Positions 4,782 to 39,620 of a DNA stretch of 64,000 nt are shown in pieces. The notes beneath the pieces were generated by a model, which had not been told where the DNA came from, made no database searches, and saw only the letters and a list, made by a program, of their open reading frames with translations. Both the position numbers and the translations under genes were made by a program. The stretch covers positions 148,563-212,562 of the forward strand of contig JAHBUH010000006.1 in NCBI GenBank assembly GCA_019638185.1. Direction: 5' to 3'. Source of the DNA: Leadbetterella sp. (lineage in GTDB: Bacteria > Bacteroidota > Bacteroidia > Cytophagales > Spirosomataceae). Positions within the stretch are counted from its first letter, which is position 1, and every line of letters starts with the position of its first letter.

Positions 4782-7700
4782 TTAAAATCCGATGTTTAAG
4801 CCGATGGCATAGCTTCTCCACAGCGGGTAGCTCAGTGAAATGGTATTGGTATTTTCCGGGTCATAGTAGTTAAACCACATACCGGTTTTTTCCCAAAGGT
4901 CCTGGCCGGAGAAGAAAACCTTCACGTCACCCAGTCCTTTTACCTTGTGCGTTCCCGGTTTTACGGTATACCCCAGCTGCAGGTTTTTCAGACGGATGTA
5001 GCTGGCATTCTGCACCCAGTGCGAAGACACTACGTCATTGATCCGGTCACCGATCAGGATCCGGGGGAAGCGGGCATCGTTATTTTCCGGTGTCCAGTAA
5101 TCCTGGTGGATCTTCCATGGCATCATCCAGCCGTTATAGAAAGGCAGGGTATTGCCTGCATCGATCAGCACGCTTCTTTTTCCTACACCGTTAAATAAAA
5201 CCGAGAAGTCAAAGCCTTTCCAGTTCACACCGCCACTGATACCGAACACATAGCGCGGGTTGGTATTACCCAGGTAAACCAGGTCACCGTGATTTTCAGC
5301 CGTATTGATACCGGCGTTGATCTTCCCGTCATTGTTGAGATCCAGCAGTTTAATATCACCCACCCGGGTAGAGGTTACCCGCACGGGATAGCCGTTCAGC
5401 TCTTCTGCGGTGTCAAAATACCCGTCAGCCTTGTAGCCAAAGATGGAATTCGTAGAGAGGCCGGGAAGGGAAGCGTTTATCCCTGCGCCGTAGGATACCG
5501 ATCCGTCATAACGGGTCACTTTGTTCTTATCATCGCTCAGGTTAGCGGCCAGGTAGTAGCCCCCGTTTTTGAAGCGGTCGTTCCAGTTCAGGGTCACGCC
5601 CCAGCCTTTCACCTGCACACCGGCCAGGTTAGCGGCGTTCGGGGTCACGCCCAGCATGGCCGGCAGCTGCTGGCCTACGAATACGTTATTATTCTGCTTC
5701 ACGAAGTAGTCAAAATGCAGGCGCAGCCGGTTTTTCAGCACTTCCATGTCAAAACCCACGTTAGCGGTTTCAATGATCTCCCAGGCTTTGCTGTCGGAAG
5801 GTAAGCCGGACTGGAAGAAATACACGGTTTTGGCGTCATTAAACGGATAGTATCCCCGGGAAAGCGGGCTCTGGAAATCGTAGTTGTTAGCGTTAGGGTT
5901 AGACGTCTGCGCGCCCCCTGCCGTACCGTATGAGGCCGATAGCTTAAATTCATTGATCCAGGGCAGGGCACTGTTAAACCACTTCTCTTCGGCCATGCGC
6001 CAGAAGGCGTTCACCGCATAGAAGTTCTGGAATTTAAAGCCCGGGGCCAGGCGCGAGCTTCCGTCACGCCGGTAGGTTCCTTCCAGGTAGTACTTGCTGG
6101 CATAGTTATAGGTGAGACGGCCGAAGTACGACAGCCACGTATTCACCTGGATGTTATCACTTACATTACCCACGTCAGCGGTAGACAGCGTGGTGTAGTT
6201 CAGTGTAGGGAAGTCATTCAGCAGCAGTGCCCGCTGGATAGCCTGCACGGCATCATACTCGTATTTTTTAAACTCGTAACCGGCCAGGCCATGGAAACTG
6301 TGCTTATTGATCTTGTAATCATAATCTGCCGTGGTAAAGAAGCTCTGGTTAAGCGTATAAGGCCGGGTCTTGGACAGGGAGTTAATCTGGTTAATGGGCG
6401 TTCCCGCTACCAGGTTCATGTTGGCATCCACAGTCCACCGTTCTACGGTTTTGTTAAACGTGGAACCATCGCTCAGCACTAGGCCGGGGCTGTAAACCGC
6501 CTTCAGGTTCAGGCCTTTCACCACGTCATTGGCCAGGAGGCTGATCACTGCGTTTACATCGTAAGCGTCAGTGCGGGAGTAACCGCCGTCTTTCAGGATA
6601 GGGTAGGCATTGGAAATGGTACCGATAAAGGCGTATTTGTCCTCGTAACCCGGTGTAAAGATAGGGTTACGGGCCGCCCGGATGGTGTACACGTTATAGA
6701 GTACGCCACTACCGCCGTTTACGCCCATGGAAGGAGCCATGGTATTGGATTTGGCAAACGACAGACGGGTGTCCAGGCTCAGCTTTTTGGTAAAGCGGGT
6801 ATTGTAATTGATACGGGCGTTGATCCGGTTATAGGAGTCAGGTCCGAATTTGAAAACCCCTTCCTGGTCCAGGTAACCCAGTGAAAACAGGAAGCTGGAT
6901 TTGTCACCGCCACCGCTGGCCGTTACGTTAATGTTCCTTTGCGGGCTCTGGTCACGCATAAGGATTTGCTTCATGTTATTATTGTAGTAGTATTCCCACT
7001 GCTTGCTATTCGGGTTCAGGTAGTACTCCACGTTCGGGTCATCAAACCAGGCCAGTTGCTGATCGTTAAAGGCTGCGGCACCGCCACCGTTAATGGCAGC
7101 TGCGTTCTGCAGTTCGGCTTCTTCGCGTGAGCTGAGCATTTCAGGCCGGGCAAACGGCTTACGGAAGGTGTACATCATGTTTACGTCCACCTTGGTTTTC
7201 TGGTTAGGCTTACCGGCTTTAGTGGTTACCAGGATCACCCCGCCACCGGCTTTGGCACCATAAATGGAGGCTGAGGCGGCATCCTGCAGTACGGTCAGGT
7301 CCTGGATGTCGTTCGGGTTCAGGGTATTGATATTGCCTTCCACACCGTCAATGATCACCAGCGGGGAGTTTCCGGATCCCAGGGAGGTAATACCCCGGAT
7401 CTGGGCGTTCCAGCCTTCCTGGCCCGGCTGCCCGTTAGACCGGGTGATCACCAGGCCGGGTGCGGCACCTTGCAGGGCGGAGAGGGTATTGGTCACCGGG
7501 CGGTCTTTCAGTACTTTGTTATCTACGGTCAGTACCGCACCACCGATATCCCGCTTGATTTTGGAGGTATAACCTACCACCACCACGTCTTCCAGGGCAT
7601 TGGAGGAGTTGTTTAAGCGGATGGTGAGGGTGGTCTCATTAGTCAGCTTGTGATCCTGGGAGTCATAGCCGATGTAGCTTATGGTCAGGATGTCGCCGGG

Positions 7701-7928
7701 GCCGGCATTAATGGAAAACTTACCGTCGGCATCGGTAGAGACCCCGCGGTTCGTTCCTTTGATCACCACGGATGCTCCGGGGAGTCCCGCGCCGGTTTCA
7801 TCGAGAACCGTTCCGGTGATATCCCTTTTCTGCCCGTTTACCAGGAAGGGTAAGCACAGGAAGAGCGGGATAACCCAGAGGATAACCGCACGCGCTAAAA
7901 AATTTTGAGGTAAATTTTTACATTTCAT
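4782..7928 (-). CDS. SusC/RagA-family TonB-dependent outer-membrane transporter
   Basis: A 1048-aa receptor. A signal sequence (about residues 1-32) is followed by a carboxypeptidase-regulatory-like beta-sandwich (ITGTVLDETGAGLPGASV, about 36-120), a plug domain (DVVVVGYTSK start, then GAAPGLVITRS and GVEGNINTLNPNDIQ-type plug motifs) and a long beta-barrel ending in GLNIGF with the usual terminal aromatic. It imports oligosaccharides through the outer membrane using TonB energy, working with the adjacent SusD-like lipoprotein. It is the first gene of the leftward operon and diverges from the HTCS regulator at 8206, which is the usual arrangement for regulator-controlled polysaccharide-utilisation loci. 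No N-terminal STN domain is present, consistent with control by an HTCS and not by an ECF/anti-sigma pair. Confidence 0.96.
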   Translation of the reverse strand: MKCKNLPQNFLARAVILWVIPLFLCLPFLVNGQKRDITGTVLDETGAGLPGASVVIKGTNRGVSTDADGKFSINAGPGDILTISYIGYDSQDHKLTNETTLTIRLNNSSNALEDVVVVGYTSKIKRDIGGAVLTVDNKVLKDRPVTNTLSALQGAAPGLVITRSNGQPGQEGWNAQIRGITSLGSGNSPLVIIDGVEGNINTLNPNDIQDLTVLQDAASASIYGAKAGGGVILVTTKAGKPNQKTKVDVNMMYTFRKPFARPEMLSSREEAELQNAAAINGGGAAAFNDQQLAWFDDPNVEYYLNPNSKQWEYYYNNNMKQILMRDQSPQRNINVTASGGGDKSSFLFSLGYLDQEGVFKFGPDSYNRINARINYNTRFTKKLSLDTRLSFAKSNTMAPSMGVNGGSGVLYNVYTIRAARNPIFTPGYEDKYAFIGTISNAYPILKDGGYSRTDAYDVNAVISLLANDVVKGLNLKAVYSPGLVLSDGSTFNKTVERWTVDANMNLVAGTPINQINSLSKTRPYTLNQSFFTTADYDYKINKHSFHGLAGYEFKKYEYDAVQAIQRALLLNDFPTLNYTTLSTADVGNVSDNIQVNTWLSYFGRLTYNYASKYYLEGTYRRDGSSRLAPGFKFQNFYAVNAFWRMAEEKWFNSALPWINEFKLSASYGTAGGAQTSNPNANNYDFQSPLSRGYYPFNDAKTVYFFQSGLPSDSKAWEIIETANVGFDMEVLKNRLRLHFDYFVKQNNNVFVGQQLPAMLGVTPNAANLAGVQVKGWGVTLNWNDRFKNGGYYLAANLSDDKNKVTRYDGSVSYGAGINASLPGLSTNSIFGYKADGYFDTAEELNGYPVRVTSTRVGDIKLLDLNNDGKINAGINTAENHGDLVYLGNTNPRYVFGISGGVNWKGFDFSVLFNGVGKRSVLIDAGNTLPFYNGWMMPWKIHQDYWTPENNDARFPRILIGDRINDVVSSHWVQNASYIRLKNLQLGYTVKPGTHKVKGLGDVKVFFSGQDLWEKTGMWFNYYDPENTNTISLSYPLWRSYAIGLNIGF

Positions 7929-8032
7929 AAAACATGTATTGAGTTTAAGGTGACAAATAAACCGCCCTTTAGTATGGTACTTTGCGAAGAAAAAAAAGTA
8001 CGGTTTGTTGATTACAATACAATGTTAAGCCG

Positions 8033-8046
8033 GTATAGTACTATAC
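8033..8046. promoter_or_regulatory. perfect 14-bp palindrome in the SusC/HTCS divergent region, candidate operator
   Basis: The 14-bp sequence GTATAGTACTATAC is its own reverse complement and sits in the AT-rich 277-bp gap between the divergent SusC-like gene and the HTCS gene, 105 bp from the SusC start. A related half, AGTATGGTAC, lies at 7971-7980. A symmetric site here is a reasonable operator for the AraC-type output domain of the HTCS, but this is inference only. Confidence 0.4.
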
Positions 8047-8205
8047 TGGGGAGAATTTCTTAAATTTATAGGGGTATTATTTTAAAATTTTATTAACTTA
8101 TTGATTATAAGTGACTTAAATATTTGTAATTCAAGAAGATTATGCTTGTTTTAAAGTTTACCTGCTGAAATTGGTATTCATTTCCGATAAAATATTACTA
8201 TCCGG

Positions 8206-11200
8206 ATGGTTTTTCTTTTACGCTGTTTGCTGCTGGGGTGCTTTTTGACAGGGGCTACGCGTGCCGTTTCCCAGCAGAAACTTTTCCGGCATTTTTCAGT
8301 AGCTGACGGGCTGCCTAATTATAGTGCCATTTCCATCATCCAGGATCACACCGGTTTTATGTGGATTGGCACTACAGACGGTCTCTGCCGCTATGACGGG
8401 CTGCGGTTTAAAGTGTACCGGTACGATGTGAATGACAGTTCCAGCCTTTCCAGCGGGCACATTAATACCCTCTGGACGGGTGCTGACGGAACGCTGTGGG
8501 TAGGTACCTCCGGCGGGCTGGATAAGTATGACCCGGAGCGGGACAGGTTTCAACGGATCCACCTCCGGGGAAAACCGGTGACCAGCATCTTCCGGATCTT
8601 TGAAGATTCCAGGGGGATGACGTGGGTGGGAACGGAAAACGGCCTCTTCACGATTCCCAAAGGGGGGGAAGCGGCTCCTTTTGCAGGCCCCATCACCGGG
8701 AATATGGTCCGGGGCATTTTTGAAGACCGGCTGGGCCGGATGTGGATTGGCACAGACCAGGGGCTTAACTGCCTGGAGCGCTCCGGCGGCGGGTACCGGG
8801 TCACTTATTTTAAGCCTTTTCCCGGGAGGCGCGATAACGTAGTCACTTCTATTATGGAAGATGACCGCCAAACCCTCTGGGTGGGAATGCAGAACCTCGG
8901 GCTGTGTGCGTTTAACCCCGAAACCAGGACTTTTACCCACTACACTACTTCCACGGGGCTGGTGAATGACCATATCCGCTGTATTACCCCTGACCGCACC
9001 GGAAACCTGTGGGTGGGCACGCAGGAAGGGATCAGTATTCTGGATCCCATCCGGAGAACCTTCCGGAACGTGGCCCGGATCCCCGGTGATGAAACCAGCC
9101 TGAGCCAGAATTCGATATTCACTATTTTTAAAGACCGGCTGGGTTCCATGTGGGTAGGGACTTTTTTCGGAGGAGTGAATATCAGCTATGCCTATAATAC
9201 TACTTTCGGGGTGATCAAGGATGATAACCGCCAGAACAGCATCAGTAATAACGTGGTCAGCAGCATAGTGGATGATGGTAAAGGTAACCTCTGGATAGGT
9301 ACGGAAGGCGGCGGACTGAACTATTTTAACCGGGCAACCCGTACGTTCAGCTATTATAAGCATGAGCCTCAAAAGGCTCTCTCCCTCCGGTCTAACCTGA
9401 TCAAAATGATTTACAAAGATACCGATGGAAACATCTGGGTGGGTACGCACGGAGGTGGGCTGAACGTGCTGCCGCCGGGCGGGAGGAGCTTTGGCGAGGG
9501 ACTGGTGAATCTTCCGGCCCCCACTCCGAAGATCGTTACGGAGGTTACTTCGGCCACTGATGATGGAGCGGGGAATCTCTGGGTGGCCACCAATACGGCG
9601 CTGTTTATTTTTAAACGGGAGGGTACCCGCCTTACCGGGGAGCGGAAAGTGGATATTGTGAGCCGGGTGTACCCCCAGAAGTACCTGTTCAGGGATTCGG
9701 GGAATACTATCTGGGTCTTCGGGTCGCGTGGAGTAAGCGCCATAAGGGAGGGCCGGGCAAGAGAGGTAGACAGCACGCTGCTGATCAACTGCTTTGCAGA
9801 AAACCGCATGGGCGAGCTGTGGGGCGGCACTACCGGTGACGGGGTGGTGAGGTATGACGGCGTAAAGTTTATTAAATATACCAATGCCTTCTTTAAAGAG
9901 GCAGCGGTGGTGGGCATTCTGTGCGGTGAGGATCAGGACCTCTGGCTGAGTACAAACAAGGGTCTGGTGCATTTCTTCCCCGAAACGGGCGTTTACAGGG
10001 TATACACCCGGGATGACGGTATAGCCGGTGACGAGTTTAATTATAACTCCTATTTCCGGTCAGCGGACGGCTACTTTTATTTTGGCGGCTATAACGGCCT
10101 CACGTATTTCCGGCCGGCCGATATCCTCAATAACCTCCATAAGGCGCCGCTGGTTTTCACACGGCTCAGGCAGCACAGCGGGGAAGAAGGCAGCGGTTTC
10201 ACGGAAGAAAACATAACCCGCCGGCCGGGAATCCGTATGCGTTACGACAAGAATACGTTTACTGTAGATTTTGCCCTGCTGAACTATATCAAGAGCCAGA
10301 AAAACCTGTACCACTATCAGCTGGAAGATTACGATAAAACCTGGAAAGAGACCTCTGACGGTTCGGCCACTTATACTAACCTTCCGCCGGGAACTTACCG
10401 CCTGCTGGTACGGGGAGCTAATAATGACGGCGTTTGGAGCGATGTTAAAACCCTGGAAATTACTATCACACCACCATTCTGGCTGACCTGGTGGGCATAT
10501 TGCTTTTATATCCTGCTGGCGGGCGGGATGGTTTTTGTGATAGCGCGTTTCTTCTTCCTGCGGGCCCTGTTAAAGAAAGAAGATGAGCTGCACCAGGCTA
10601 AGCTGAACTTTTTCACCAATGCTTCTCACGAGATCAGAACCCACCTTACCCTGATCATGGTACCGGTGGAGCGCCTGCTGAAGGAGAGCACCTCCGGCGA
10701 TTTTGTGCATCAGCAGCTTTCACTGGTCAAGGCCAACACTAACCGCCTGCTGAACCTGGTGCGGGAGCTGATGGACTTCCGGAAGGCGGAGACTAACCAC
10801 CTCCAGCTGTTTTCCCGGCGCCAGGACCTGGTGCCCTTCCTGAGGGAGATCGGGCAGTCGTTCCGGGAAACCGCCCTGGCCTCGCACATCGACATGAGCT
10901 TTACGCATAACGAAGAGGTCATCCCGGTGAATTTTGATGAGAAGCAGCTGGAAAAGGTATTTTTTAACCTCCTGGCCAATGCCATTAAGTTTACACCCGA
11001 AAACGGCCGGATAGCACTTTCAGCAGAGGCCCGGAAAGACGATGTGGTCATTAAAGTGACGGATAACGGCCGGGGGATAGCACCGCAGTATCTTCCCCGC
11101 CTCTTCACTAATTTTTTCCAGGTGGCGGATCACGGCATGCAGAATACGGGCTACGGCATAGGCCTGGCCCTGTCTAAGAACATCGTGGAGCTGCATAAGG

Positions 11201-12198
11201 GACGCATTTCAGTAGAAAGCATCCCCGCCACGGAAGAAGATGAGGGCCGGACCGTCTTTACGGTGATCCTTCCTAAAAATGCCTCTATCCCGGCTACTTC
11301 GCCGCCACCACCGGAGGTGTCCAGCCCGCTTAGTGAACCGGTAGAAGTGGTGGCTCCGCCCGAAACGGGTACCCGGTTTAAAGGCTCCACCGTGCTGGTG
11401 GTGGAAGATAACGCTGAGCTCTGCCGGATGATTGTAGACGAATTTTCTGCCGTTTACCGGGTCATTACCGCTGCAAACGGCCGGGAAGCCTGGGAAGCCG
11501 CTACGGCGGAGATCCCCGAGCTGATCATTTCGGATGTGATGATGCCGGAAATGGACGGCTATGCGCTGTGTGAAAAAATCAGGACCGACGACCGCACCAG
11601 CCACATTCCCCTGATCCTGCTTACGGCAAAAAGTACCCGGAATGCCCAGATAGAAGGGCTCCAGCACGGAGCAGATCTTTACCTGACCAAGCCTTTCAGC
11701 ACCCGGGTGCTCAGCCTGAGCGTGCGGAACCTGCTGGCCGCGCGCGACCGCATCCGCCAGAAAACCACCAAGGAGCTGGCCCGTCTGCATGTGAGCCCGA
11801 CCCCGGCTGAGACCCCGGCAGCTTCTCCCGATGACGCCTTCCTGGAAAAGGTGACCCGGATCATTGACCAGCACCTGGATGACGTGGATTTCGGGGTGGA
11901 GAAACTGGCCCGCGAGGTGGGTATGAGCGTGCCCGTACTGTATAAAAAGCTCAGGGCACTGACCAATATGTCTGTGAATGAGGTGGTGAAGGTGTACCGC
12001 TTCCGGAAAGCGGCCGGACTGCTGGCGCAGAAGCAGCTCAGCATCAGCGAGGTGGCTTCTGCCGTAGGCTATGACGACAGGAAGTATTTCAGTAAGGAGT
12101 TTAAGAAATATTTCGGGGTGGCACCCAGCGACTTCGCCGTTACCCCTTCCGGCACGGAAATGAAGATCGAAGAAACAGATCCTTATTTGAGTTCGTAA
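8206..12198 (+). CDS. hybrid two-component system regulator (HTCS) of the polysaccharide locus
   Basis: A 1330-aa one-protein signalling chain. Order: signal peptide (1-22); periplasmic two-component-regulator propeller repeats with many W(I/V)GT motifs (about 25-690); Y_Y_Y domain (about 700-757, YHYQLEDYDKTW); transmembrane segment (about 757-785); HisKA with phospho-His808 in NASHEIRTHL; HATPase (N-box near 923, later DNGRGIA and GYGIGLAL); receiver domain with phospho-Asp1110 (SDVMMPEMDG) and Lys1162 (LTKPF); C-terminal AraC HTH (about 1208-1321). It senses a periplasmic oligosaccharide and activates the divergent SusC operon. Oddity: the H-box proline normally five residues after the histidine is His813 (codon CAC), a departure from the usual SHEIRTPL. 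The 3' end overlaps the convergent DUF6427 gene by 16 bp. Confidence 0.95.
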   Translation: MVFLLRCLLLGCFLTGATRAVSQQKLFRHFSVADGLPNYSAISIIQDHTGFMWIGTTDGLCRYDGLRFKVYRYDVNDSSSLSSGHINTLWTGADGTLWVGTSGGLDKYDPERDRFQRIHLRGKPVTSIFRIFEDSRGMTWVGTENGLFTIPKGGEAAPFAGPITGNMVRGIFEDRLGRMWIGTDQGLNCLERSGGGYRVTYFKPFPGRRDNVVTSIMEDDRQTLWVGMQNLGLCAFNPETRTFTHYTTSTGLVNDHIRCITPDRTGNLWVGTQEGISILDPIRRTFRNVARIPGDETSLSQNSIFTIFKDRLGSMWVGTFFGGVNISYAYNTTFGVIKDDNRQNSISNNVVSSIVDDGKGNLWIGTEGGGLNYFNRATRTFSYYKHEPQKALSLRSNLIKMIYKDTDGNIWVGTHGGGLNVLPPGGRSFGEGLVNLPAPTPKIVTEVTSATDDGAGNLWVATNTALFIFKREGTRLTGERKVDIVSRVYPQKYLFRDSGNTIWVFGSRGVSAIREGRAREVDSTLLINCFAENRMGELWGGTTGDGVVRYDGVKFIKYTNAFFKEAAVVGILCGEDQDLWLSTNKGLVHFFPETGVYRVYTRDDGIAGDEFNYNSYFRSADGYFYFGGYNGLTYFRPADILNNLHKAPLVFTRLRQHSGEEGSGFTEENITRRPGIRMRYDKNTFTVDFALLNYIKSQKNLYHYQLEDYDKTWKETSDGSATYTNLPPGTYRLLVRGANNDGVWSDVKTLEITITPPFWLTWWAYCFYILLAGGMVFVIARFFFLRALLKKEDELHQAKLNFFTNASHEIRTHLTLIMVPVERLLKESTSGDFVHQQLSLVKANTNRLLNLVRELMDFRKAETNHLQLFSRRQDLVPFLREIGQSFRETALASHIDMSFTHNEEVIPVNFDEKQLEKVFFNLLANAIKFTPENGRIALSAEARKDDVVIKVTDNGRGIAPQYLPRLFTNFFQVADHGMQNTGYGIGLALSKNIVELHKGRISVESIPATEEDEGRTVFTVILPKNASIPATSPPPPEVSSPLSEPVEVVAPPETGTRFKGSTVLVVEDNAELCRMIVDEFSAVYRVITAANGREAWEAATAEIPELIISDVMMPEMDGYALCEKIRTDDRTSHIPLILLTAKSTRNAQIEGLQHGADLYLTKPFSTRVLSLSVRNLLAARDRIRQKTTKELARLHVSPTPAETPAASPDDAFLEKVTRIIDQHLDDVDFGVEKLAREVGMSVPVLYKKLRALTNMSVNEVVKVYRFRKAAGLLAQKQLSISEVASAVGYDDRKYFSKEFKKYFGVAPSDFAVTPSGTEMKIEETDPYLSS

Positions 12199-13580
12199 GT
12201 GTTTTTACCGGTTTTTTTATACTTCCGGGCCAGCCCGGGAATATGCGCAAAGACCTGGGGCATTACGCCCTCTTCGTCAATGATCACTTGGGGCATGTCT
12301 TTGGTGAAATTATTGTAAATGTTAGAGATGCTGAGGTAATTATCCGGGTTCTCAAAATCGCGGCGGGCCAGGTTCCAGCTCAGGTAGCCGGTGGCCATGT
12401 CATTAGAGCGGTAGGCATCAATGTTCCGGCCGGTAATAAAAATTCTTTTGCCGTTATAGTCGGGGACCGTCTCACTTACCCGGTAATCTGCCAGCAGCCG
12501 GGCTGAAACGCCGAAAATATTTTTGGCACCCAGGTAGGAAATAAAGATCAGTGTACTGAAAAACAGCAGGAAGACCACTTCCGGTACAAAAAGCTTTTTG
12601 GAATGTACAAAGAAGCCGGCGCAGTAGAAGGCCAGGGGAATAATGAAATAAACCAGGTTAGAAGGCAGGTATTTCCCGGAAAGCAGGAAGGCCAGGAGCG
12701 CAAAAATACCCAGGATCAGGAGAGCCTGGTGCGAGCGGTTCTGGAAACTGTTATAACGATGCCCGCGCAGCACCTTGGCCACACCCAGTAGCGAGAGCAC
12801 CACCGGTAGCGTATAAACAATAAGGATGTCACGGATATTCAGCAGGGTGACTTTCACAAAACTGTTCAGGTTCAGCAGCCATACCTGGGTGAAATCAGCA
12901 CCCATGTCATTGAAATAGAAGAAAATAAACATGAAAAACAGGGGCAGGAGGAAGGCGAGGATCACCATAAAAGCCTGCCGGATGTTAATACCGGTATACA
13001 AAAACAGGGTGAGTATGGCCCAGAGGATAAACACAAAGGCCGGGTGGTGAAAAAGGGTGGCCAGGCCAAAGAAAATGCCGGTTTCAAAGACGTCGTCCCC
13101 CACGCCGTCGCGCTTCTCGATCTGGCTCAGTACGGAATTTACCCCCAGCAGCACAAAGGTGTTAGCCAGGAGGGAAGGCGAAAGCTTCATGAGGTCAAAC
13201 GAAATGCTCATGAGCACCACGTACAGCAGCGCACCGATGTAATTCTTCTCGTTAAACAGGTTCCGCTTATTGATCATGAAATTCAGCAACAGGGCCTGAA
13301 GGTAAACCACACCGGCTGCAATCACCTGGTATACCATCTGGCTGTGGCCGAAAGTGGCGTCTATCAGCTGGTAGAAATAGGAAGACAGGGGCGCCACCTG
13401 GGTCAGTACCTCGTTATACAGGAAGAGATCTTCATTCAGCTTACGGCCTATCAGCATCCACTCCAGTTCAGTGGACAGCAGCGGAAGCTGGGGCGAAAAA
13501 AACAGCATCCGGATGGCCATAATGATGATCAGAATGGACAGGGTCTGGAAAACGGAATAGATTCTGAAGAAGGTTAACAA
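12183..13580 (-). CDS. DUF6427-type polytopic membrane protein
   Basis: A 465-aa integral membrane protein with about ten or more hydrophobic segments separated by short loops, including ILIIIMAIRMLFF at the N-terminus and a conserved-looking region SPSLLANTFVLLGVNSVL. It resembles the Bacteroidota-restricted DUF6427 family, of unknown function; the architecture is reminiscent of glycosyltransferase-like polytopic proteins, but no catalytic motif is visible. A C-terminal soluble stretch of about 70 residues follows the last helix. It converges on the HTCS gene with a 16-bp overlap of coding ends. Function unassigned. Confidence 0.75.
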   Translation of the reverse strand: MLTFFRIYSVFQTLSILIIIMAIRMLFFSPQLPLLSTELEWMLIGRKLNEDLFLYNEVLTQVAPLSSYFYQLIDATFGHSQMVYQVIAAGVVYLQALLLNFMINKRNLFNEKNYIGALLYVVLMSISFDLMKLSPSLLANTFVLLGVNSVLSQIEKRDGVGDDVFETGIFFGLATLFHHPAFVFILWAILTLFLYTGINIRQAFMVILAFLLPLFFMFIFFYFNDMGADFTQVWLLNLNSFVKVTLLNIRDILIVYTLPVVLSLLGVAKVLRGHRYNSFQNRSHQALLILGIFALLAFLLSGKYLPSNLVYFIIPLAFYCAGFFVHSKKLFVPEVVFLLFFSTLIFISYLGAKNIFGVSARLLADYRVSETVPDYNGKRIFITGRNIDAYRSNDMATGYLSWNLARRDFENPDNYLSISNIYNNFTKDMPQVIIDEEGVMPQVFAHIPGLARKYKKTGKNTYELK

Positions 13581-13733
13581 GGTACGCTCGGCATTTTTTA
13601 TGCAAAAATATGCTTCCTTTCATGCTTAAACCAAAAAATAGCCGGATATTTGTAAATTAAAGCACATAACCGCCATTTTCTGCTACAGGAGGTCTTAACT
13701 GCTTGAAACAATGGGAATTTACAGTATATAAAT

Positions 13734-14099
13734 ATGGAAAGTAAGCGGCAAAGACAGGTGGGAAAGCTGATCCAAAAGGATCTGGGCGATATATTCCAGC
13801 GGGAATTCAGGGGTTTGTTTGCCGGTAATTTTGTAACCATTACCGATGTGAAGGTATCCCCTGACCTGAGTGTGGCCAAAGTATACCTGAGCTTTCTGAA
13901 GACGCATAACCGGGAAGCTATCCTGGATGAGATCCGGGAGAATACCAAAAAGATCCGGGGGCTGTTTGGCGGCATGGCCGGGAAACAGCTGCGCATTATC
14001 CCTAATTTCAGTTTCTTTATTGACGACACGGCCGAATATGCCCAAAAGATAGAGCAATTATTTGCCAATATCCATATTCCGCCTGCTGAGGAAGAATGA
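13734..14099 (+). CDS. rbfA: 30S ribosome-binding factor A
   Basis: A 121-aa protein that matches RbfA across its length: an N-terminal RQRQVGKLIQKDLGDIFQ helix, the KH-like core with VTITDVKVSPDLSVAKVYLS, and the LRIIPNFSFFIDDTAEYAQKIEQL C-terminal strand-helix. RbfA binds the 16S rRNA 5' region during late 30S maturation and cold adaptation. The stop codon overlaps the start of the next gene (ATGA at 14096-14099), so it is translationally coupled to the FtsX-like permease; this rbfA-permease pairing is, to my recollection, common in Bacteroidota. Confidence 0.95.
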   Translation: MESKRQRQVGKLIQKDLGDIFQREFRGLFAGNFVTITDVKVSPDLSVAKVYLSFLKTHNREAILDEIRENTKKIRGLFGGMAGKQLRIIPNFSFFIDDTAEYAQKIEQLFANIHIPPAEEE

Positions 14100-15310
14100 A
14101 TCTGCCGTTTTTTATAGCGCGAAAATATTTCCTCTCCAGGAAAAAGCGAAGTTTCATTAACTTCATTTCCCTGATCTCTATGCTGGGCGTGGGGATAGGC
14201 CTTTCGGCGCTTATCGTTATTCTTTCAGTGTTTAACGGCCTGGAAGACCTGAATCGGCAGATCTTTAAGTCGTTTGATCCCGACCTGAAGATCACGGCAG
14301 CATCCGCCAAGAGCTTTCTGCCCGAACCGGCCCTGGTGCAGGCCATTTCCGCTACGGAAGGAGTGGATTACTGTACCCAGATCTACCAGGACAAGGCCCT
14401 GGCTAAAAATGAGAAGGCCCAGTCCATTGTGGATGTGAAAGGGGTGGACAGCACTTTTGCCCGGAATTCGGAATTCCGGAAATCACTGGCCGGCGGGGAA
14501 ATGAACCTGTATGTGGGGAACCGCCCGGCGGCATTTATCGGCGCCACGGTGTATAACAGCCTGCAGCTGACCCTGAATGATTTCTTCCGGCCCCTGGAGA
14601 TCCTGTACCCTAAAAACCAGAAGCTTAACGTACTGAACCCCGAAGAAAACATTAACCGGGTCACGCTGGAGATCTCAGGTGTTTTTGTGTTGGAGCAACA
14701 TTACGATAATTTTGTCTACCTTCCCATAGAGGTGATGGAAGCCCTGAACGATTACCCCGGCCGGCGCACGGCCCTGGAAATCACGCTGAAACCGGGTGCA
14801 GATGTGGGGAAAGTGAAGGCGGCCATCGGGAAGCAGCTGCCTGCGGGCCTGGTGATCCGGGATCGGGATGAGCTGAATGCTTCTTTGCTGAAAGCCATCC
14901 GGATTGAGAAGCTGTTTATTTTTATCGGCTTGTTTTTCGTGGTGGGCATTGCGGCATTTAATATTTTCTATGCCCTGAGTATGCTGGTGCTGGATAAGAA
15001 GGATGATATTGCCACGTTATCCGCCATGGGGGCGGATAAAGTGCTGATCCGGAGGGTATTTTTTACGGAAGGGCTCATTATTTCCGGTGTGGGTATCGGG
15101 CTGGGGCTGGGCCTGGGCCTGGGCGTGTGCTGGGCGCAGATCCGTTACGGGCTGGTGGGACTGGGCATGGAGCATGCCATCACCACGGCCTACCCGGTGC
15201 GTGTGATGAGCAGCGATGTGCTGTTTTCGGTGGCGGGAATAGTGGTGATCACGCTGCTGGCGTCTTTCATACCTGCCACTAAAGCTGCAAATTTTATGTT
15301 AAACAAATGA
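14096..15310 (+). CDS. FtsX/LolE-like ABC transporter permease
   Basis: A 404-aa permease with the typical layout: an N-terminal membrane helix (about 20-45, ISLISMLGVGIGLSALIVIL), a large periplasmic MacB-type core domain (about 50-265), and three C-terminal helices of the FtsX domain (about 270-400), with the signature KKDDIATLSAMGA. The closest functional class is LolC/E, which extracts lipoproteins from the inner membrane, but no LolD ATPase is encoded next to it and the partner ATPase must lie elsewhere. It starts at the ATG overlapping the rbfA stop codon. Confidence 0.9.
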   Translation: MNLPFFIARKYFLSRKKRSFINFISLISMLGVGIGLSALIVILSVFNGLEDLNRQIFKSFDPDLKITAASAKSFLPEPALVQAISATEGVDYCTQIYQDKALAKNEKAQSIVDVKGVDSTFARNSEFRKSLAGGEMNLYVGNRPAAFIGATVYNSLQLTLNDFFRPLEILYPKNQKLNVLNPEENINRVTLEISGVFVLEQHYDNFVYLPIEVMEALNDYPGRRTALEITLKPGADVGKVKAAIGKQLPAGLVIRDRDELNASLLKAIRIEKLFIFIGLFFVVGIAAFNIFYALSMLVLDKKDDIATLSAMGADKVLIRRVFFTEGLIISGVGIGLGLGLGLGVCWAQIRYGLVGLGMEHAITTAYPVRVMSSDVLFSVAGIVVITLLASFIPATKAANFMLNK

Positions 15311-35354: not shown

Positions 35355-35603
35355 TCATACTCCGGGCTCCTGCCTGTTCAGCCTGATGTCTTTGCAGATG
35401 TATTCCAGCAGGTGGCAGGGATCTTCGTGAATGGCTTTTGCTAAGATGTAGATCTCGTCAGCCCGCATTTTCAGGCAGTCTTTTGAGGCGAATTCACTGA
35501 TCCGGTTAGGGCGGATTCCCGTGGCACGGGAAAGTGCGGCCTGGTTAATGGCCTTGCGGTCAAGATACCTTCCGAAACTTGTCCTGTGGTTCCTGTTGCT
35601 CAT
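35355..35603 (-). CDS. small XRE-type HTH protein
   Basis: An 82-aa protein with an HTH of the Cro/C1 type (about 10-65; FGRYLDRKAINQAALSRATG followed by RPNRISEFASK). It ends in a charged tail. It diverges from the 57-aa gene and the sigma factor, and the 119-bp spacer between them holds repeated ATCGATAT words, so it is a candidate regulator of the sigma/dead-Cas12f operon. Function not established. Confidence 0.75.
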   Translation of the reverse strand: MSNRNHRTSFGRYLDRKAINQAALSRATGIRPNRISEFASKDCLKMRADEIYILAKAIHEDPCHLLEYICKDIRLNRQEPGV

Positions 35604-35722
35604 GGTATTGAGGTTAATCGATATAAATATATTAGAATCCGATACGAATATTTGGTGGTTATACTTATATTAGGTATTTTTATATTGAAAATCGATATTT
35701 ATCTAAAATCACAGGACAACTT
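35604..35722. promoter_or_regulatory. divergent promoter region with repeated ATCGATAT words
   Basis: A 119-bp, very AT-rich spacer between the XRE gene (leftward) and the 57-aa gene (rightward). ATCGATAT occurs at 35617-35624 and again at 35691-35698, 74 bp apart, each followed or preceded by TTTAT/ATAAAT. The pair could be operator sites for the XRE protein. Promoter elements could not be placed with confidence. Confidence 0.4.
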
Positions 35723-35896
35723 ATGCAGATCGAGATCCTACTGAAAGAACCCGTCCGGTACCGTGAAGCCCTCTTAGGATTATTGAAAGCGGTGGAAGTG
35801 AAAGACCTCACCGGAAAACTGGCAGAAGAAGTAAAGCTTATTTACCAGCTGATGGACCTGATCGAGACCCGGATCAGGGCGGCTAACAGCGGCTGA
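35723..35896 (+). CDS. 57-aa helical protein upstream of the sigma factor
   Basis: ATG-initiated 57-codon frame. The product is predicted helical and charged (IEILLKEPVRYREALLGLLK, then a run of Leu/Glu/Lys), with no membrane segment. Its last codon lies 41 bp before the sigma-factor start on the same strand, so it probably shares the transcript. I do not recognise a family; it might be a small partner or antagonist of the sigma factor or of the dead Cas12f protein. It is short enough that other annotations could miss it. Confidence 0.6.
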   Translation: MQIEILLKEPVRYREALLGLLKAVEVKDLTGKLAEEVKLIYQLMDLIETRIRAANSG

Positions 35897-35937
35897 TGCT
35901 TTAGCGGTGTGTACACTATACTAAACTCTGACATAAC

Positions 35938-36777
35938 ATGATGACCTTGGAAAACATTTATCTTGAAAAATTAAAGAAGGGCGATGAGGCGGGCCTGTCC
36001 TGGTTTTACGGACATTTTTACCGCTGGTATGCCTATCGCGCTTATCGGTATATCCGCGAAGACCTGGATGCCCATTGCATAGCGCAGGAGGCTTTCCTGC
36101 GGCTGTGGATCTTCCGGGAGAGCATTGAAGACGTACCGCATCTGCACCGGTTTATCAGCCGGCAGGTGACCGAGGCGGGAAAGGCGTATCACCGGAAACG
36201 GAGCAACCAGTTTCGCCGGCAGCTGCTCTGGTTTTTTGATTATGAAGATCCGGAGGGCCTGCTACCGGGAAGTTCCCCGGAGTGGGCGGAAGAGCCGCTG
36301 CTGGAGATCGAAGAGCCGGATGAGCAGGATTCGGAGCGGCTGGAAGCGCTGAACAGGCTGCTGCCTCACCTGGACGGCGAACAGCAGCTGTTTATCCGGC
36401 TTTGCCTGAAGTATGATTTTAACTATGAGCGCATAGCCTTTTACCTGGGCGGTATCCGGGAGTACGAGGTGGCTCAGCGGGTGGAGAAGTGCATAGACCG
36501 GCTGAAAAGCCTGCTGGCTGACAGCCGGAAGCTTTCAGAGGTGACGCGTACGCATACGTTCCGGGTAGACCGTCAGCTGAGCCCCGAACAGGCGGATATC
36601 CTGAGGCTGCGGTATGAGCTGGGAAATTCCTTTGAAGAGATCGCGGCCGGCCTCCACCTGACCCCGGAAAAAGTAAGAACCCTTTTTATTCAGGCATTCA
36701 CCATTATTAAAAGTAGTAAGCATGGAAAAAATTATCCTCACACGAAGGGTGCAGCTGATCATCAACTCCAGGGATAA
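35938..36777 (+). CDS. long ECF-type sigma factor, linked to dead Cas12f
   Basis: A 279-aa sigma-70-family protein. Region 2 lies at about 10-85 (GLSWFYGHFYRWYAYRAYRY, then IAQEAFLRLWIFRES), the core-polymerase and -10-type recognition part. Region 4 is at about 200-255 (LSPEQADILRLRYELGNSFEEIAAGLHL, a helix-turn-helix). Between them is a second region-4-like block at about 135-190 (LNRLLPHLDGEQQLFIRLCLK, NYERIAFYLGG), separated by an acidic linker (EPLLEIEEPDEQDSE). A normal ECF factor is about 180-200 aa, so this one is enlarged. Its 3' end overlaps the next gene by 56 bp, so the two are probably translated together. No anti-sigma gene is adjacent. With the dead Cas12f homologue it fits an RNA-guided transcription initiator; that function is inference. 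Confidence 0.85.
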   Translation: MMTLENIYLEKLKKGDEAGLSWFYGHFYRWYAYRAYRYIREDLDAHCIAQEAFLRLWIFRESIEDVPHLHRFISRQVTEAGKAYHRKRSNQFRRQLLWFFDYEDPEGLLPGSSPEWAEEPLLEIEEPDEQDSERLEALNRLLPHLDGEQQLFIRLCLKYDFNYERIAFYLGGIREYEVAQRVEKCIDRLKSLLADSRKLSEVTRTHTFRVDRQLSPEQADILRLRYELGNSFEEIAAGLHLTPEKVRTLFIQAFTIIKSSKHGKNYPHTKGAADHQLQG

Positions 36778-37810
36778 GGAGGTGCTGAAGACGTATTATG
36801 ACCAGATGTACGAGTACCAGCGCCTGGTCTGTTACGCAGCCAATATGATCAATACCCACCTGTTTCTGCAGGACAGGCTGAGAGACCTGGTGTACCTGAC
36901 CACGGAAACGAAGGTAAAGCTGGCGGATGCCATGAAAGACGAGGACGGGATCCTGACCACTTCCCACATGAATTCTATCTACCGGCTGCTCAGTGCTAAT
37001 TTTCTGAAGCTCCTGCCGTCTTCCACCCTGAGTAACCTTAACCAGGCGCTTTACCGCACGTACCAGAGTAACCGGGAGGTGTACTGGCGGGGGGAGAAGT
37101 CGATGCCGAATTACCGGAAGGATATTCCCATCCCTTTCAGTAACCGGGATATGACGCTTCACGAGGAAGAGGGCGGCAAAAACTTTACGTTTACCCTCTT
37201 TAAGATCCCGTTTAAGACCTACCTGGGGCGCGACCGCTCCGGTATGCGTATGATCCTGAGGAAGATAGCTAACGGTGAGCTTCCTCTACGCCAGAGCGCT
37301 ATCCAGATGAAGAATAACAAGATCTACCTGCTGGCCAGCCTGGAGGCGGAAAGGCAGCGTTCGGAACCGGACCCGTCGCTGATAGCGGAGGTGTCGCTTT
37401 CCATGGAGTACCCGCTGGTGGTGAAGATCGGGCGGGAGGAGTTCCAGATCGGGAATAAGGAAGAGTTTTTATACCGCCGGCTGTCCATCCAGGCGGCCCG
37501 CCGGCGCCTGCAGATCGCCGCTACCTGGAACAAGGGCGGGAAGGGAAAGAAAAGGAAGCTGAAGAGCCTGGAAAATTACAGTGAGAAGGAGAAGAATTAT
37601 ATTGAGTCGAGGCTCCACCTGTACAGTCGCCGGCTGATAGACCACTGCCAGCGGGCGGGGGCGGGAACTATCCTGCTGGTGAACCAGTCGTATAAGGAGG
37701 AGGTAGCCAAAGGAGATACCGTTCTGCTGCGCAACTGGAGCTATTACGGGCTCAAAACGAAGATTGCGTATAAAGCAAAGTTAGCCAACATCCTGCTCAT
37801 GGAAGAGTAG
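36722..37810 (+). CDS. nuclease-dead Cas12f/TnpB-family protein
   Basis: A 362-aa protein with a Cas12f/TnpB-type RuvC half: FLYRRLSIQAARRRLQIA, then the basic GKGKKRKLKSLENY, SRLHLYSRRLIDHCQRAGAG and WSYYGLKTKIAYKAK, which match the conserved order in that family. All three catalytic acids appear lost. The RuvC-I site (normally GIDLG) reads VVKIGREEF; the RuvC-II glutamate position in TILLVNQS is Val; the protein stops after YKAKLANILLMEE, before the zinc-finger and RuvC-III aspartate. The N-terminal half (about 1-180) is a divergent recognition/wedge-like region with basic character (MPNYRKDIPI). It overlaps the sigma gene by 56 bp and precedes a structured RNA-like region at 37811-38225. 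Such proteins bind guide RNA and DNA without cutting. Confidence 0.82.
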   Translation: MEKIILTRRVQLIINSRDKEVLKTYYDQMYEYQRLVCYAANMINTHLFLQDRLRDLVYLTTETKVKLADAMKDEDGILTTSHMNSIYRLLSANFLKLLPSSTLSNLNQALYRTYQSNREVYWRGEKSMPNYRKDIPIPFSNRDMTLHEEEGGKNFTFTLFKIPFKTYLGRDRSGMRMILRKIANGELPLRQSAIQMKNNKIYLLASLEAERQRSEPDPSLIAEVSLSMEYPLVVKIGREEFQIGNKEEFLYRRLSIQAARRRLQIAATWNKGGKGKKRKLKSLENYSEKEKNYIESRLHLYSRRLIDHCQRAGAGTILLVNQSYKEEVAKGDTVLLRNWSYYGLKTKIAYKAKLANILLMEE

Positions 37811-37998
37811 TTAAGATATGCTGGATTAGTATGAGGAGGTTGTCCGCACAACCGGATGCTGAGGCGCAAGCACTCGGCAAGTAGCTAACACTACATGCGG
37901 GTAAGGCGTGAGAAACTTTTCGCTTTAATTCAGAGAGGCCGGGGCGCGCCGCTGCAGATGCCGCGTGCAGAAGGAACCCGCAGAGAAGGATACTACCG
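37811..37998 (+). ncRNA. putative guide-RNA scaffold/tracrRNA-like region
   Basis: Non-coding stretch right after the dead Cas12f stop codon, on the same strand, with several short hairpins: 37838-37853 (GGTTGT/ACAACC, loop CCGC), a stem TGCTGAG/CTCGGCA around 37858-37879 and GTAG/CTAC at about 37881-37894. It ends in an anti-repeat ACCCGCAGAG (37976-37985) that is exactly complementary to the first repeat copy at 37999-38008. Scaffold RNAs of Cas12f systems show this order: structured tracr part, anti-repeat, repeat. Boundaries are uncertain and expression is not shown. Confidence 0.6.
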
Positions 37999-38209
37999 CT
38001 CTGCGGGTAATCCCGGCAGGGGGAGGTGTTTGGAGTGATCCGGTGAGGATGGCCCGGGTAGGTTACGATTTTCCATTCTGCGGGTAATGCCCGGCAGGAG
38101 GAGACGTTTGGAGTGATCCGGTGAACGTGCACCGGGTAGGGCGCGATTATCCTTTGCTAAAGGGTTTATGGCAGGGTGATCCGGTCGGCTGCGGGTAATG
38201 CCCGGTAGG
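37999..38209 (+). repeat. three-copy CRISPR-like repeat array of the dead-Cas12f locus
   Basis: The 20-21-nt core CTGCGGGTAATGCCCGG(C/T)AGG occurs at 38001-38020, 38078-38098 and 38189-38209. Each forms the same stem-loop; the first copy lacks one G and still pairs with the bulge removed, and the third has a C-to-T change that keeps a G-U pair, so the structure seems conserved. Units 38001-38077 and 38078-38155 also share GTTTGGAGTGATCCGGTGA, so intervals are not unrelated spacers as in a classical CRISPR. The third copy is followed by GAAACAAAAAATCTTTTGGG, a possible guide. I could not match any guide elsewhere in the window. Confidence 0.6.
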
Positions 38210-38306
38210 GAAACAAAAAATCTTTTGGGGCTGATCGTACAGCCTTAGGGTGAGGTCAGAGACACTCATTAAGTACAGAGCATGTGGTGCATACGGTGTG
38301 TCACGT

Positions 38307-38325
38307 CGTTTCATTTTGTGAAACG
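38307..38325. terminator. hairpin upstream of the phosphodiesterase gene's 3' end
   Basis: Short perfect stem CGTTTCA/TGAAACG (38307-38313 and 38319-38325) with a 5-nt T-rich loop. It lies beyond the stop codon of the leftward phosphodiesterase gene (ends 38385) and could end its message or the guide-RNA transcript. No T-run follows on the minus strand, so support is weak. Confidence 0.3.
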
Positions 38326-38384
38326 GCAGGATATCGTTTTGCACTGGCCCGGGTACGTACGAAAGCCGTCGGAACTTAGATATC

Positions 38385-39620
38385 CTATTTAATGACCCAG
38401 CGGTTCACGGCATTTTTTTCACCTTCTATCACGATCTTCAGGAAGCGGGCTTCCTTCAGCTCCGGGCTGAGGGGAATGACCGCCCGGCCGCTGCTGAGGT
38501 CAAAGCTGCCGGCGTTCCGGTAGATATCGCCTTTGCCTTCCGTTTCAAAGCGGTGAGTAGAGGAGATGAGCACGTTCACCTTGCCGGTGGTTTCAAAGGG
38601 AGTCCACTCCAGGCGGAGCTCGTCATTCACCACGCGGGCCGATGGCTCAGCCAGGGATATGCCGCCTATGAAGGGCACGCCGTCCAGCTCATAGCGGCTG
38701 TCTGTAGGAATGGCCAGGTTCAGGTGGCGGGCCACAGAGGGCAGTACGTCTACTATAGCCGGGGTATAGGCATGGAAGTACCGGTTCAGTTCACGGCTAT
38801 TGGTACAGATCCAGGAGGTCCGCTCGCGGGCGGACTGCTTCCCGTGCGAGAGGCCCGTGGCCACATCCCTTCCGTGATCCGTGACAATCACCATCAGCCA
38901 ATCTTCGGCGTAATATTGCTGCCGGTACAGGATGGCCTGGTAGAGCTCGCCCAGCTGACGGTCGGTTTTACGGATGGCCGCTGTCATCTTCTCGCTGTCA
39001 CCCGAGGCATGCCCCACATCATCCGTATACTGCAGGTACACCCAGCTCAGGTCAGGGGCATCGGTACGGAGGCTGTTAGCGGCCTGGCGGATGACCTCCT
39101 CATCGATGCGGTTAATGTAGACTGACTCCCCGTCATGGGGGAAACGCTCCTTATCCAGTTCATAGCCGTCAAATACGTAATCCAGTTTCAGGAAACCGGT
39201 CTGGGGCAGGTTCTCGCCCAGCAGTTTGGTACGGTTATCGGTCCAGGTAGAATAGACCGCCAGCTTCTTTTGGGGCATGGCTTCCCGGAGAAAGCTGAAG
39301 ATGGTGCGGTAATGGTAGTTAGGGGCAGTGATGCGGTTATCCCATACATTATGTTTATTTACCCAGGTGCCGGTCAGCATGCTGTTATAAGAAACGGCTG
39401 AGATGGTAGGGGTCTGGGAGTAAGCCCCTTTTTCTCCGCCTACATAGGCACGGGTATATCCGCCGTCGTGCCGGATGATATCCAGGTTAGGAGTAGGCGT
39501 GCGCTCCAGCAGGTCAGCCGGAATGCCGTCAGCAATGACCATCAGGGCTTTTGGGGTACGGGTTTGGCCGTAGGCCGAACAGGAAAGTATGAAAAAGAGA
39601 CTAAAACAGAGGCTTCGCAT
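38385..39620 (-). CDS. nucleotide pyrophosphatase/phosphodiesterase-like alkaline-phosphatase superfamily protein
   Basis: A 411-aa secreted protein (signal peptide about 1-19, ending SAYG). Alkaline-phosphatase superfamily features: [18 protein letters not shown] near the N-terminus, the nucleophile region [13 protein letters not shown], the metal-binding [13 protein letters not shown] (DxxGH) and the C-terminal VTDHGRD plus LSHGKQ motifs. It should hydrolyse phosphomono- or phosphodiester bonds in the periplasm. The C-terminal 80 residues form an added beta-sandwich-like domain. It is monocistronic and converges on the guide-RNA region of the dead Cas12f locus. Confidence 0.9.

Follow-up and report, generated by a model that had tools for sequence, protein, structure and literature searches.

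We analysed a stretch of 64,000 nucleotides of Leadbetterella sp. DNA (contig JAHBUH010000006.1, positions 148,563 to 212,562; referred to here as the window) in which an extracytoplasmic function (ECF)-type sigma factor gene adjoins a gene for a nuclease-dead Cas12f (dCas12f), followed on the same strand by two candidate guide RNA (gRNA) genes (Table 1). Our findings indicate that this locus very probably encodes, on the chromosome, an RNA-guided system for transcription initiation that belongs to the dCas12f-sigmaE class. Such systems are already known, and the locus would represent a new member. Membership in this class, which the first-pass annotation of the DNA had proposed, is strongly supported at the sequence level: both proteins match one solved complex, the RuvC site appears dead, and gRNA scaffolds lie beside the dCas12f gene.

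Table 1. Features of the dCas12f-sigmaE locus and its surroundings (window coordinates)
Feature	Position	Strand	Remarks
Cro/C1-type helix-turn-helix (HTH) gene	35355..35603	-	Divergent from sigma operon; possible regulator; PF13443 23.0 bits (cut-off 22)
Small open reading frame (ORF), 57 aa	35723..35896	+	Between HTH gene and sigma; conserved in same-genus genome G001
ECF-type sigma factor gene (sigmaE partner)	35938..36777	+	279 aa; matches 9n9q_C, TIGR02937 and Sigma70_r4
Nuclease-dead Cas12f (dCas12f) gene	36722..37810	+	362 aa; 9n9c match and alignment with L015/L016
gRNA1 scaffold	37836..37901	+	Three stems and possible pseudoknot CCGCA:UGCGG; R1 match, end extended
Guide 1, TAAGGCGTGAGAAAC	37902..37916	+	Follows pseudoknot half; end may extend further 3'
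Three-copy GC-rich repeat, CTGCGGGTAATGCCCGGCAGG	38001..38209	+	Copies at 38001, 38078 and 38189, between the gRNAs
gRNA2 scaffold	38227..38297	+	Three stems and possible pseudoknot UCGUA:UACGG; R1 match
Guide 2, begins GTGTCACGTCGTTTC	38298..38312	+	Candidate, placed by its position after the scaffold

The sigma factor and dCas12f match the two proteins of a single solved complex

The first-pass annotation described a 279-codon ECF-type sigma gene overlapping a 362-codon ORF by 56 bp, and our ORF analysis confirmed this arrangement, with both genes on the + strand and both reading frames open. The sigma protein passed the cut-off of the TIGR02937 sigma70-ECF model (52.8 bits vs 42.9), and in Pfam, Sigma70_r4 scored above its cut-off and region 2 under it. 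Among chains of the Protein Data Bank (PDB), phmmer matched residues 10-260 of the sigma factor to chain C of 9n9q, named 'RpoE', at E 1.9e-29, and the next match reached E 0.06.

Homology of the second protein to Cas12f/TnpB had also been claimed, and a Cas12f similarity search bore this out. Residues 6-359, nearly the full length, matched 9n9c_A, 'Nuclease-deactivated Cas12f', at E 1.6e-105. The remaining Cas12f/TnpB chains in the PDB were at 9.8e-41 or weaker, the best chain named TnpB being at 7.2e-18. NF040570 guided_TnpB matched at E 1.3e-21 with 77.4 bits, under its curated cut-off of 100 bits, and no Pfam family matched the protein. The CRISPR-Cas12f nucleases 9nzo and 9nzr match part of the dCas12f sequence (E 9.8e-41 and 1.1e-40, respectively), but the protein lacks the intact RuvC D, E, and D of such nucleases. 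In alignments to the longer relatives L015 and L016 and to 9nzo, Ser225 occupies the place of the RuvC-I Asp and Asn321 that of the RuvC-II Glu, and the C-terminal part bearing the third acid and the zinc ribbon is absent. These replacements agree with the catalytic loss noted earlier and, judging from the alignments, the nuclease site of dCas12f is dead.

PDB entry 9n9q contains a dCas12f chain and the RpoE chain together, so that each protein of a single solved assembly has a homologue at this locus. In the printed alignments, 9n9c is the dCas12f of L131 (Allomuricauda taeanensis JCM 17757) over 357 residues and 9n9q_C is the sigma factor of L200 over 260 residues, with L131 and L200 both belonging to genome G222.

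Two gRNA scaffolds with compensated base changes lie downstream of dCas12f

The regions downstream of many dCas12f relatives share a scaffold composed of three stems, the first of which has the loop CUUGUA, and then AUACAAC, followed by the guide. From an alignment of 28 scaffolds (A2) that left out the window and the same-genus genome G001, we built a covariance model (R1) in which the pseudoknot was not modelled. Across the window, R1 detected only two scaffolds at E <1, both beside dCas12f. The best match was at 38227-38297 (40.5 bits, E 1.6e-7), the second at 37836-37898 (27.9 bits, E 1.5e-4), and the next was at E 4.6. The end of the gRNA1 scaffold was moved from 37898, where the R1 match stops, to 37901 to take in the pseudoknot. 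Rfam at its gathering threshold gave no match in the window. The first-pass annotation had placed a gRNA-like region in an interval ending at 38225; this proved right for the gRNA1 scaffold, whereas the better-scoring gRNA2 scaffold begins 2 bp past that end and the repeats within the interval are no scaffold by R1.

In the three stems of A2, 98.1% of the cells were paired and nine pairs carried double changes, and 0 of 500 shuffles were as good on either measure, with the caveat that related sequences may outdo shuffles without any structure. Shifting the stem partner lowered pairing to 27-60%. The pseudoknot letters in A2 are weak proof because rows were selected and trimmed by those motifs. 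We then added the window and G001 copies to give alignment A3, with 26 rows in the pair counts and rows cut at the pseudoknot motif, those of gRNA1 and G001 being ended there by hand. All five pseudoknot pairs formed in 26 of 26 rows of A3, with double changes at three of the five. The G001 copy has the pseudoknot bases of gRNA1, and gRNA2 has its own set (Table 1). Both scaffolds of the window can, from their bases, form the pseudoknot of their relatives with different, compensated letters, and these changed but matching bases provide a test of the pseudoknot. The two R1 scaffolds and the pair changes suggest that dCas12f is accompanied by its cognate gRNA.

The locus is conserved in a second Leadbetterella genome and in more distant relatives

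The dCas12f protein was matched in 17 of 222 genomes of the family, including longer relatives with intact RuvC acids (G051, G053), and in 2 of 10 genomes of the genus; a first scan of genome contigs using a single protein as query gave no match. A second covariance model (R2), trained with the three copies from the window and G001 included, was used to score the best 150 of about 700 to 1240 candidates per genome. Within these candidates, scaffolds were found in 2 of the 10 genus genomes, the same two that carry dCas12f, and at this locus. A tree built from 51 sequences joined those of the window and G001 in one group (100/99), with neighbours weakly placed.

The sigma factor and dCas12f of G001 are 55% and 68% identical to the window proteins, respectively, and their ORFs overlap by 50 bp. 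The locus occupies the same place in both genomes, as 13 ORFs between 12 and 34 kb of the window match before the G001 locus with their order kept; in G001, a susC-like gene follows the gRNA. Guide 1 is identical in G001 over 15 of 15 positions (L002 2664-2678), the sequences diverge immediately after it, and the remaining noncoding stretch can scarcely be aligned between the two genomes.

For wider comparison, we used 79 named loci, the best of 216 found. A sigma relative ends 200 bp or less from the start of the dCas12f match in 75 of the 79, and R1 detected a scaffold in 76, or in 60 of 63 when the 16 loci that supplied training rows are excluded. Two or more scaffolds were present in 36 of the 79 (one minus-strand match in L129 excluded). 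Overlap of the sigma and dCas12f genes, measured from the start of the tblastn match, occurred in 1 of 75 named loci. Searches for dCas12f returned none in plasmids and one weak match, at 22% identity, in phages.

Guide-like sites in flavobacterial relatives precede TonB-receptor and sigmaE-dCas12f genes

The short 5' target motif of dCas12f-sigmaE systems is reportedly G. In flavobacterial relatives, G precedes the sites matched by the guide GCGTGGGCTCTCTTAT and its variants. The next gene after the 13 sites that we kept is a TonB-receptor gene in seven cases and the sigmaE-dCas12f operon in five, and in one case the locus sequence ends. A Plug domain was found in all seven TonB-receptor genes tested (7/7). 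Furthermore, a small divergent ORF lies upstream of all 13 sites, ending 167-200 bp away; HTH matches at E 0.02 or better were obtained for 12 of these ORFs, a curated cut-off is passed by 8 of the 13, and the one in L207 has no match. The window too has an HTH gene divergent from its sigma operon.

The 13 sites (L146, L135, L154, L163, L183, L184, L185, L194, L199, L200, L203, L207, and L209) lie within a shared element with the centre GGTATACC or similar and arms like GGCGTGAG...CTTATC, situated between the divergent small gene (mostly HTH) and the TonB-receptor or sigmaE gene.

How the sites were chosen affects how they can be read. The search within loci required G, allowed up to three mismatches in 14, and gave matches for eight guides. 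Sites in L135 (one mismatch), L146 (none), L154 (three), and L163 (two) were kept, and those of L086, L121, and two L159 guides were dropped; shuffled guides also reached three mismatches in some loci. A genome-wide search of eight genomes gave 48 matches vs 29 for the reversed control, about ten of the matches being gRNA genes preceded by C or T. Thirty of the 48 were taken as loci and 12 were inspected, with L190 and L193 dropped as gRNA genes and L202 as coding DNA in which the shared element is absent. Sites L184 and L200, in the A. taeanensis genome, have three mismatches to the guide used and are unmatched by the guide beside dCas12f in L131. The base preceding the 11 in-locus matches at one mismatch or fewer was T in nine and G in two (L135 and L146). 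Eight of the nine T-preceded matches (seven in L105 and one in L119) carry the array-like TTGAAAGGTATACA, and the ninth (L109) is without explanation. Since sites were partly chosen by G and T-preceded matches exist, the apparent G rule reflects in part how the sites were selected. Solely by analogy, the flavobacterial sites support the idea that dCas12f-sigmaE would activate transcription from the window locus as well.

A proposed mechanism of RNA-guided initiation and its relation to known systems

In the mechanism that we propose, dCas12f, with cutting disabled, would bind gRNAs produced from about 37836-37916 and 38227-38312, and this complex would locate DNA matching the guide next to a short 5' motif. 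At the matched site, dCas12f would hold the dedicated sigma factor, which would bring RNA polymerase so that transcription starts a fixed distance downstream with no normal promoter needed. The Sternberg and Chang groups reportedly described RNA-guided transcription by dCas12f-sigmaE in papers of 2025, in which the distance from the R-loop determines where transcription starts. On the basis of the solved homologue and these papers, we infer that complex formation and promoter-free initiation would also occur here. Judged by the flavobacterial relatives alone, the complex may target susC-like TonB-receptor operons or its own sigma operon.

The locus shares with the Flagellimonas (Allomuricauda) taeanensis dCas12f-sigmaE system (9n9c/9n9m/9n9o/9n9q) the order of sigma then dCas12f on one strand with a gRNA just downstream, a dead RuvC, and a three-stem scaffold with a pseudoknot before the guide. 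It differs in a dCas12f identity of 47%, the 56-bp ORF overlap, the presence of two gRNAs with other pseudoknot bases, another guide, and no target found; the new member stands well apart from the solved flavobacterial one. Among the best 79 of 216 loci, the closest named dCas12f relatives, at up to 56% identity, are those of Parapedobacter and Sphingobacterium (among L086-L126), in which sigma adjoins as in the window and many loci have several scaffolds. Some of these loci (L105 and L088) carry CRISPR-like arrays, whereas the window has no such array. The relatives suggest several testable rules: G lies 5' of the target, what follows downstream is either a gene for a TonB receptor or the system's own operon, a divergent HTH gene is close by, and some genera draw many guides from an array.

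Target searches and gRNA features that weigh against the proposal

A number of observations count against RNA-guided initiation at this locus. Foremost, our sequence scans turned up what we would consider a convincing target for guide 1 or guide 2 in neither the own genome nor G001; the own genome is 95% complete, and guide ends and mismatch tolerance were assumed. At two or fewer mismatches in 15, guide 1 had five matches in its own genome, itself included, vs seven for the reversed control, and 11 vs 12 in G001. An exact 10-nt seed of guide 1 gave 10 matches, again including itself, vs 7 in the own genome and 5 vs 6 in G001. Guide 2, at three or fewer mismatches in 16, had 7 matches including itself vs 25 for the control. 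In 388 kb of loci, partly picked by seed, G followed by guide 1 at three or fewer mismatches gave three matches vs zero for the control, one of the three being the gRNA gene itself, and G followed by guide 2 gave one vs zero; among the matches of either guide inspected, none was sense-oriented before a gene. In addition, gRNA2 folded alone favours a competing hairpin at its 3' end in which scaffold and guide bases pair with each other, and fold stability is ordinary for both scaffolds (z -1.64 and -1.46). Within 37700-38500, the sole promoter-like site sits on the opposite strand, and two sites resembling terminators, with 0.9 expected, overlap gRNA2 at its 3' end and in its guide. The coverage of the genus scaffold survey, confined to the best-scoring candidates of each genome, is a further point on this side.

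Individual candidate sites were rejected. The guide 2 match in L064, which has G and a perfect seed of 10 nt, is antisense within a susC match. A further match, in G001 (L036/L171), has G and a seed of 11 nt but runs antisense immediately behind a gene with an ending that looks susD-like by eye. For self-regulation through a site upstream of sigma (35604-35990), the best matches were equalled by 89 and 47 of 100 shuffled guides. Scanning the susC upstream regions for 30 of 61 listed matches gave nothing above controls except the gRNA gene itself. A guide boundary after GTGAGAAAC was tried first and gave a match only to the locus itself at three or fewer mismatches in 20 (control, 0); it was dropped because the pseudoknot position in relatives places the guide earlier. 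A 15-nt guide that is constant between two species, with a convincing target in neither genome, offers a concrete test of target finding.

An exact 5-nt loop partner was present downstream in 95 of 137 scaffolds, some by chance, and the base after it was C in 69, T in 21, A in 3, and G in 2. The base before the guide is therefore nearly never G in these 95 scaffolds of named loci, as if the gRNA gene avoided self-targeting given a target motif of G. In the window, the base after the pseudoknot half is G in gRNA1 and T in gRNA2, and it is T in G001.

Alternative explanations for the locus

The failure to find a convincing target in either genome also fits a decaying locus, in which intact proteins are left with guides that match nothing and there is little or no present function. 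The occurrence of dCas12f in only 2 of 10 genus genomes would agree with decay, as would a three-copy repeat that could be a degraded guide array. We consider decay improbable, since both ORFs are open, the locus keeps its place in G001 with guide 1 identical over 15 nt, and compensating changes have kept the stems and pseudoknot from being lost.

We regard it as very unlikely that the protein is a TldR-like RNA-guided repressor that blocks transcription as the neighbouring sigma factor acts alone, even if a dead Cas12f/TnpB fold alone would permit it. TldR proteins are described as TnpB-like, nuclease-dead, RNA-guided repressors that are phage-encoded and silence genes (PMC13418256). The window protein resembles these TldRs in being nuclease-dead and in the RNA-guided gene regulation expected of it. 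In contrast to the phage-encoded silencers of that account, the window encodes a dedicated sigma factor, and activation would be expected. Moreover, the window sigma factor has its match in the sigma chain that 9n9q contains together with a dCas12f, and a neighbouring sigma relative, for which a free-standing repressor would have no use, is present at 75 of the 79 named loci.

TnpB and Cas12f belong together and NF040570 was matched, though under its cut-off, but an ordinary ECF sigma gene beside an unrelated transposon TnpB remnant, with the hairpins as transposon ends, is scarcely credible given a dCas12f match of 1.6e-105 vs 7.2e-18 for the best TnpB-named chain, the same sigma adjacency among named loci, and scaffolds at the same place.

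The noncoding stretch contains a three-copy repeat between the gRNAs

The first-pass annotation described 37811-38225 as hairpin-rich and noncoding, and its predicted fold had a z of -2.91, with 1 of 100 shuffles equally stable. The three-copy repeat also reported there was recovered as a real tandem repeat, with 21-nt copies at 76-100% identity to the reference copy. The second arm (37999-38008) of a 10-bp perfect inverted repeat overlaps the first copy. As a gRNA scaffold the repeat was ruled out, as R1 with filters off gave no scaffold between those of gRNA1 and gRNA2. Four TGCGG words occur in 37811-38400, three of them in the repeat and the fourth in gRNA1, and all read TGCGGGTAA; in the repeat copies these are the same letters as the gRNA1 pseudoknot half and guide start. 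The likeness between repeat and gRNA1 is marginal, being reached by 43, 16, and 19 of 300 shuffles for the three units.

Reading the repeat as a CRISPR array, with constant-length repeats and unique spacers, failed. The 21-nt repeats fall at steps of 77 and 111 nt, and in the first two units the stretches of 66 nt resemble each other at 80% and are thus not unique spacers. Since the closest relatives partly carry CRISPR-like arrays beside these genes, the repeat may be a decayed array. Within the dCas12f-sigmaE reading, one could imagine that it is left over from a crRNA-like array that the gRNA1 scaffold would read and that the two scaffolds are separate channels of one RNA-guided sigma factor, an idea that we regard as doubtful.

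Neighbouring genes and arrays at related loci

At the place in G001 that corresponds to the HTH gene of the window, an HTH_26 gene lies at 517785-517955 on the minus strand. The 57-aa ORF aligned to its G001 counterpart with a score of 95, compared with 50 or less in 500 shuffles, and had no match in Pfam. A profile of this ORF gave weaker matches, one in L005 (E 5.8e-5) and one directly upstream of the sigma gene in L019 (E 0.012).

Array-like arrangements were observed at two of the related loci. In L088 of Parapedobacter luteus (11290-14600), 17 array-like sites lie downstream of dCas12f-sigmaE, most ending in TTTGAAAGGTATATACAAC, with spacers of about 30 nt, many at 66-nt steps, and a PIN-domain gene inside; this region had no match to phages at E 1. 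In L105 of Sphingobacterium olei (5000-9100), a CRISPR-like array (36-nt repeat, 66-nt steps) and four scaffold copies lie upstream of sigmaE, and two of these copies have a YafQ-like toxin gene between them. Searched for in-locus targets, 101 array guides gave three matches vs two for shuffled guides.

A large-genome group of the same family (g8; L003, L006, L007, L025, and others) has dCas12f-sigmaE with one or two gRNAs and an adjacent MobA/VirD2-like relaxase. This arrangement suggests that the g8 loci are carried on a mobilisable element, the relaxase having been checked against Pfam in L003 only. Finally, 15 of 76 loci have a 12-mer that recurs and has the pseudoknot half at its end; it reads GGTATAYACAAC in 12 of them and looks different in L104, L122, and L145.

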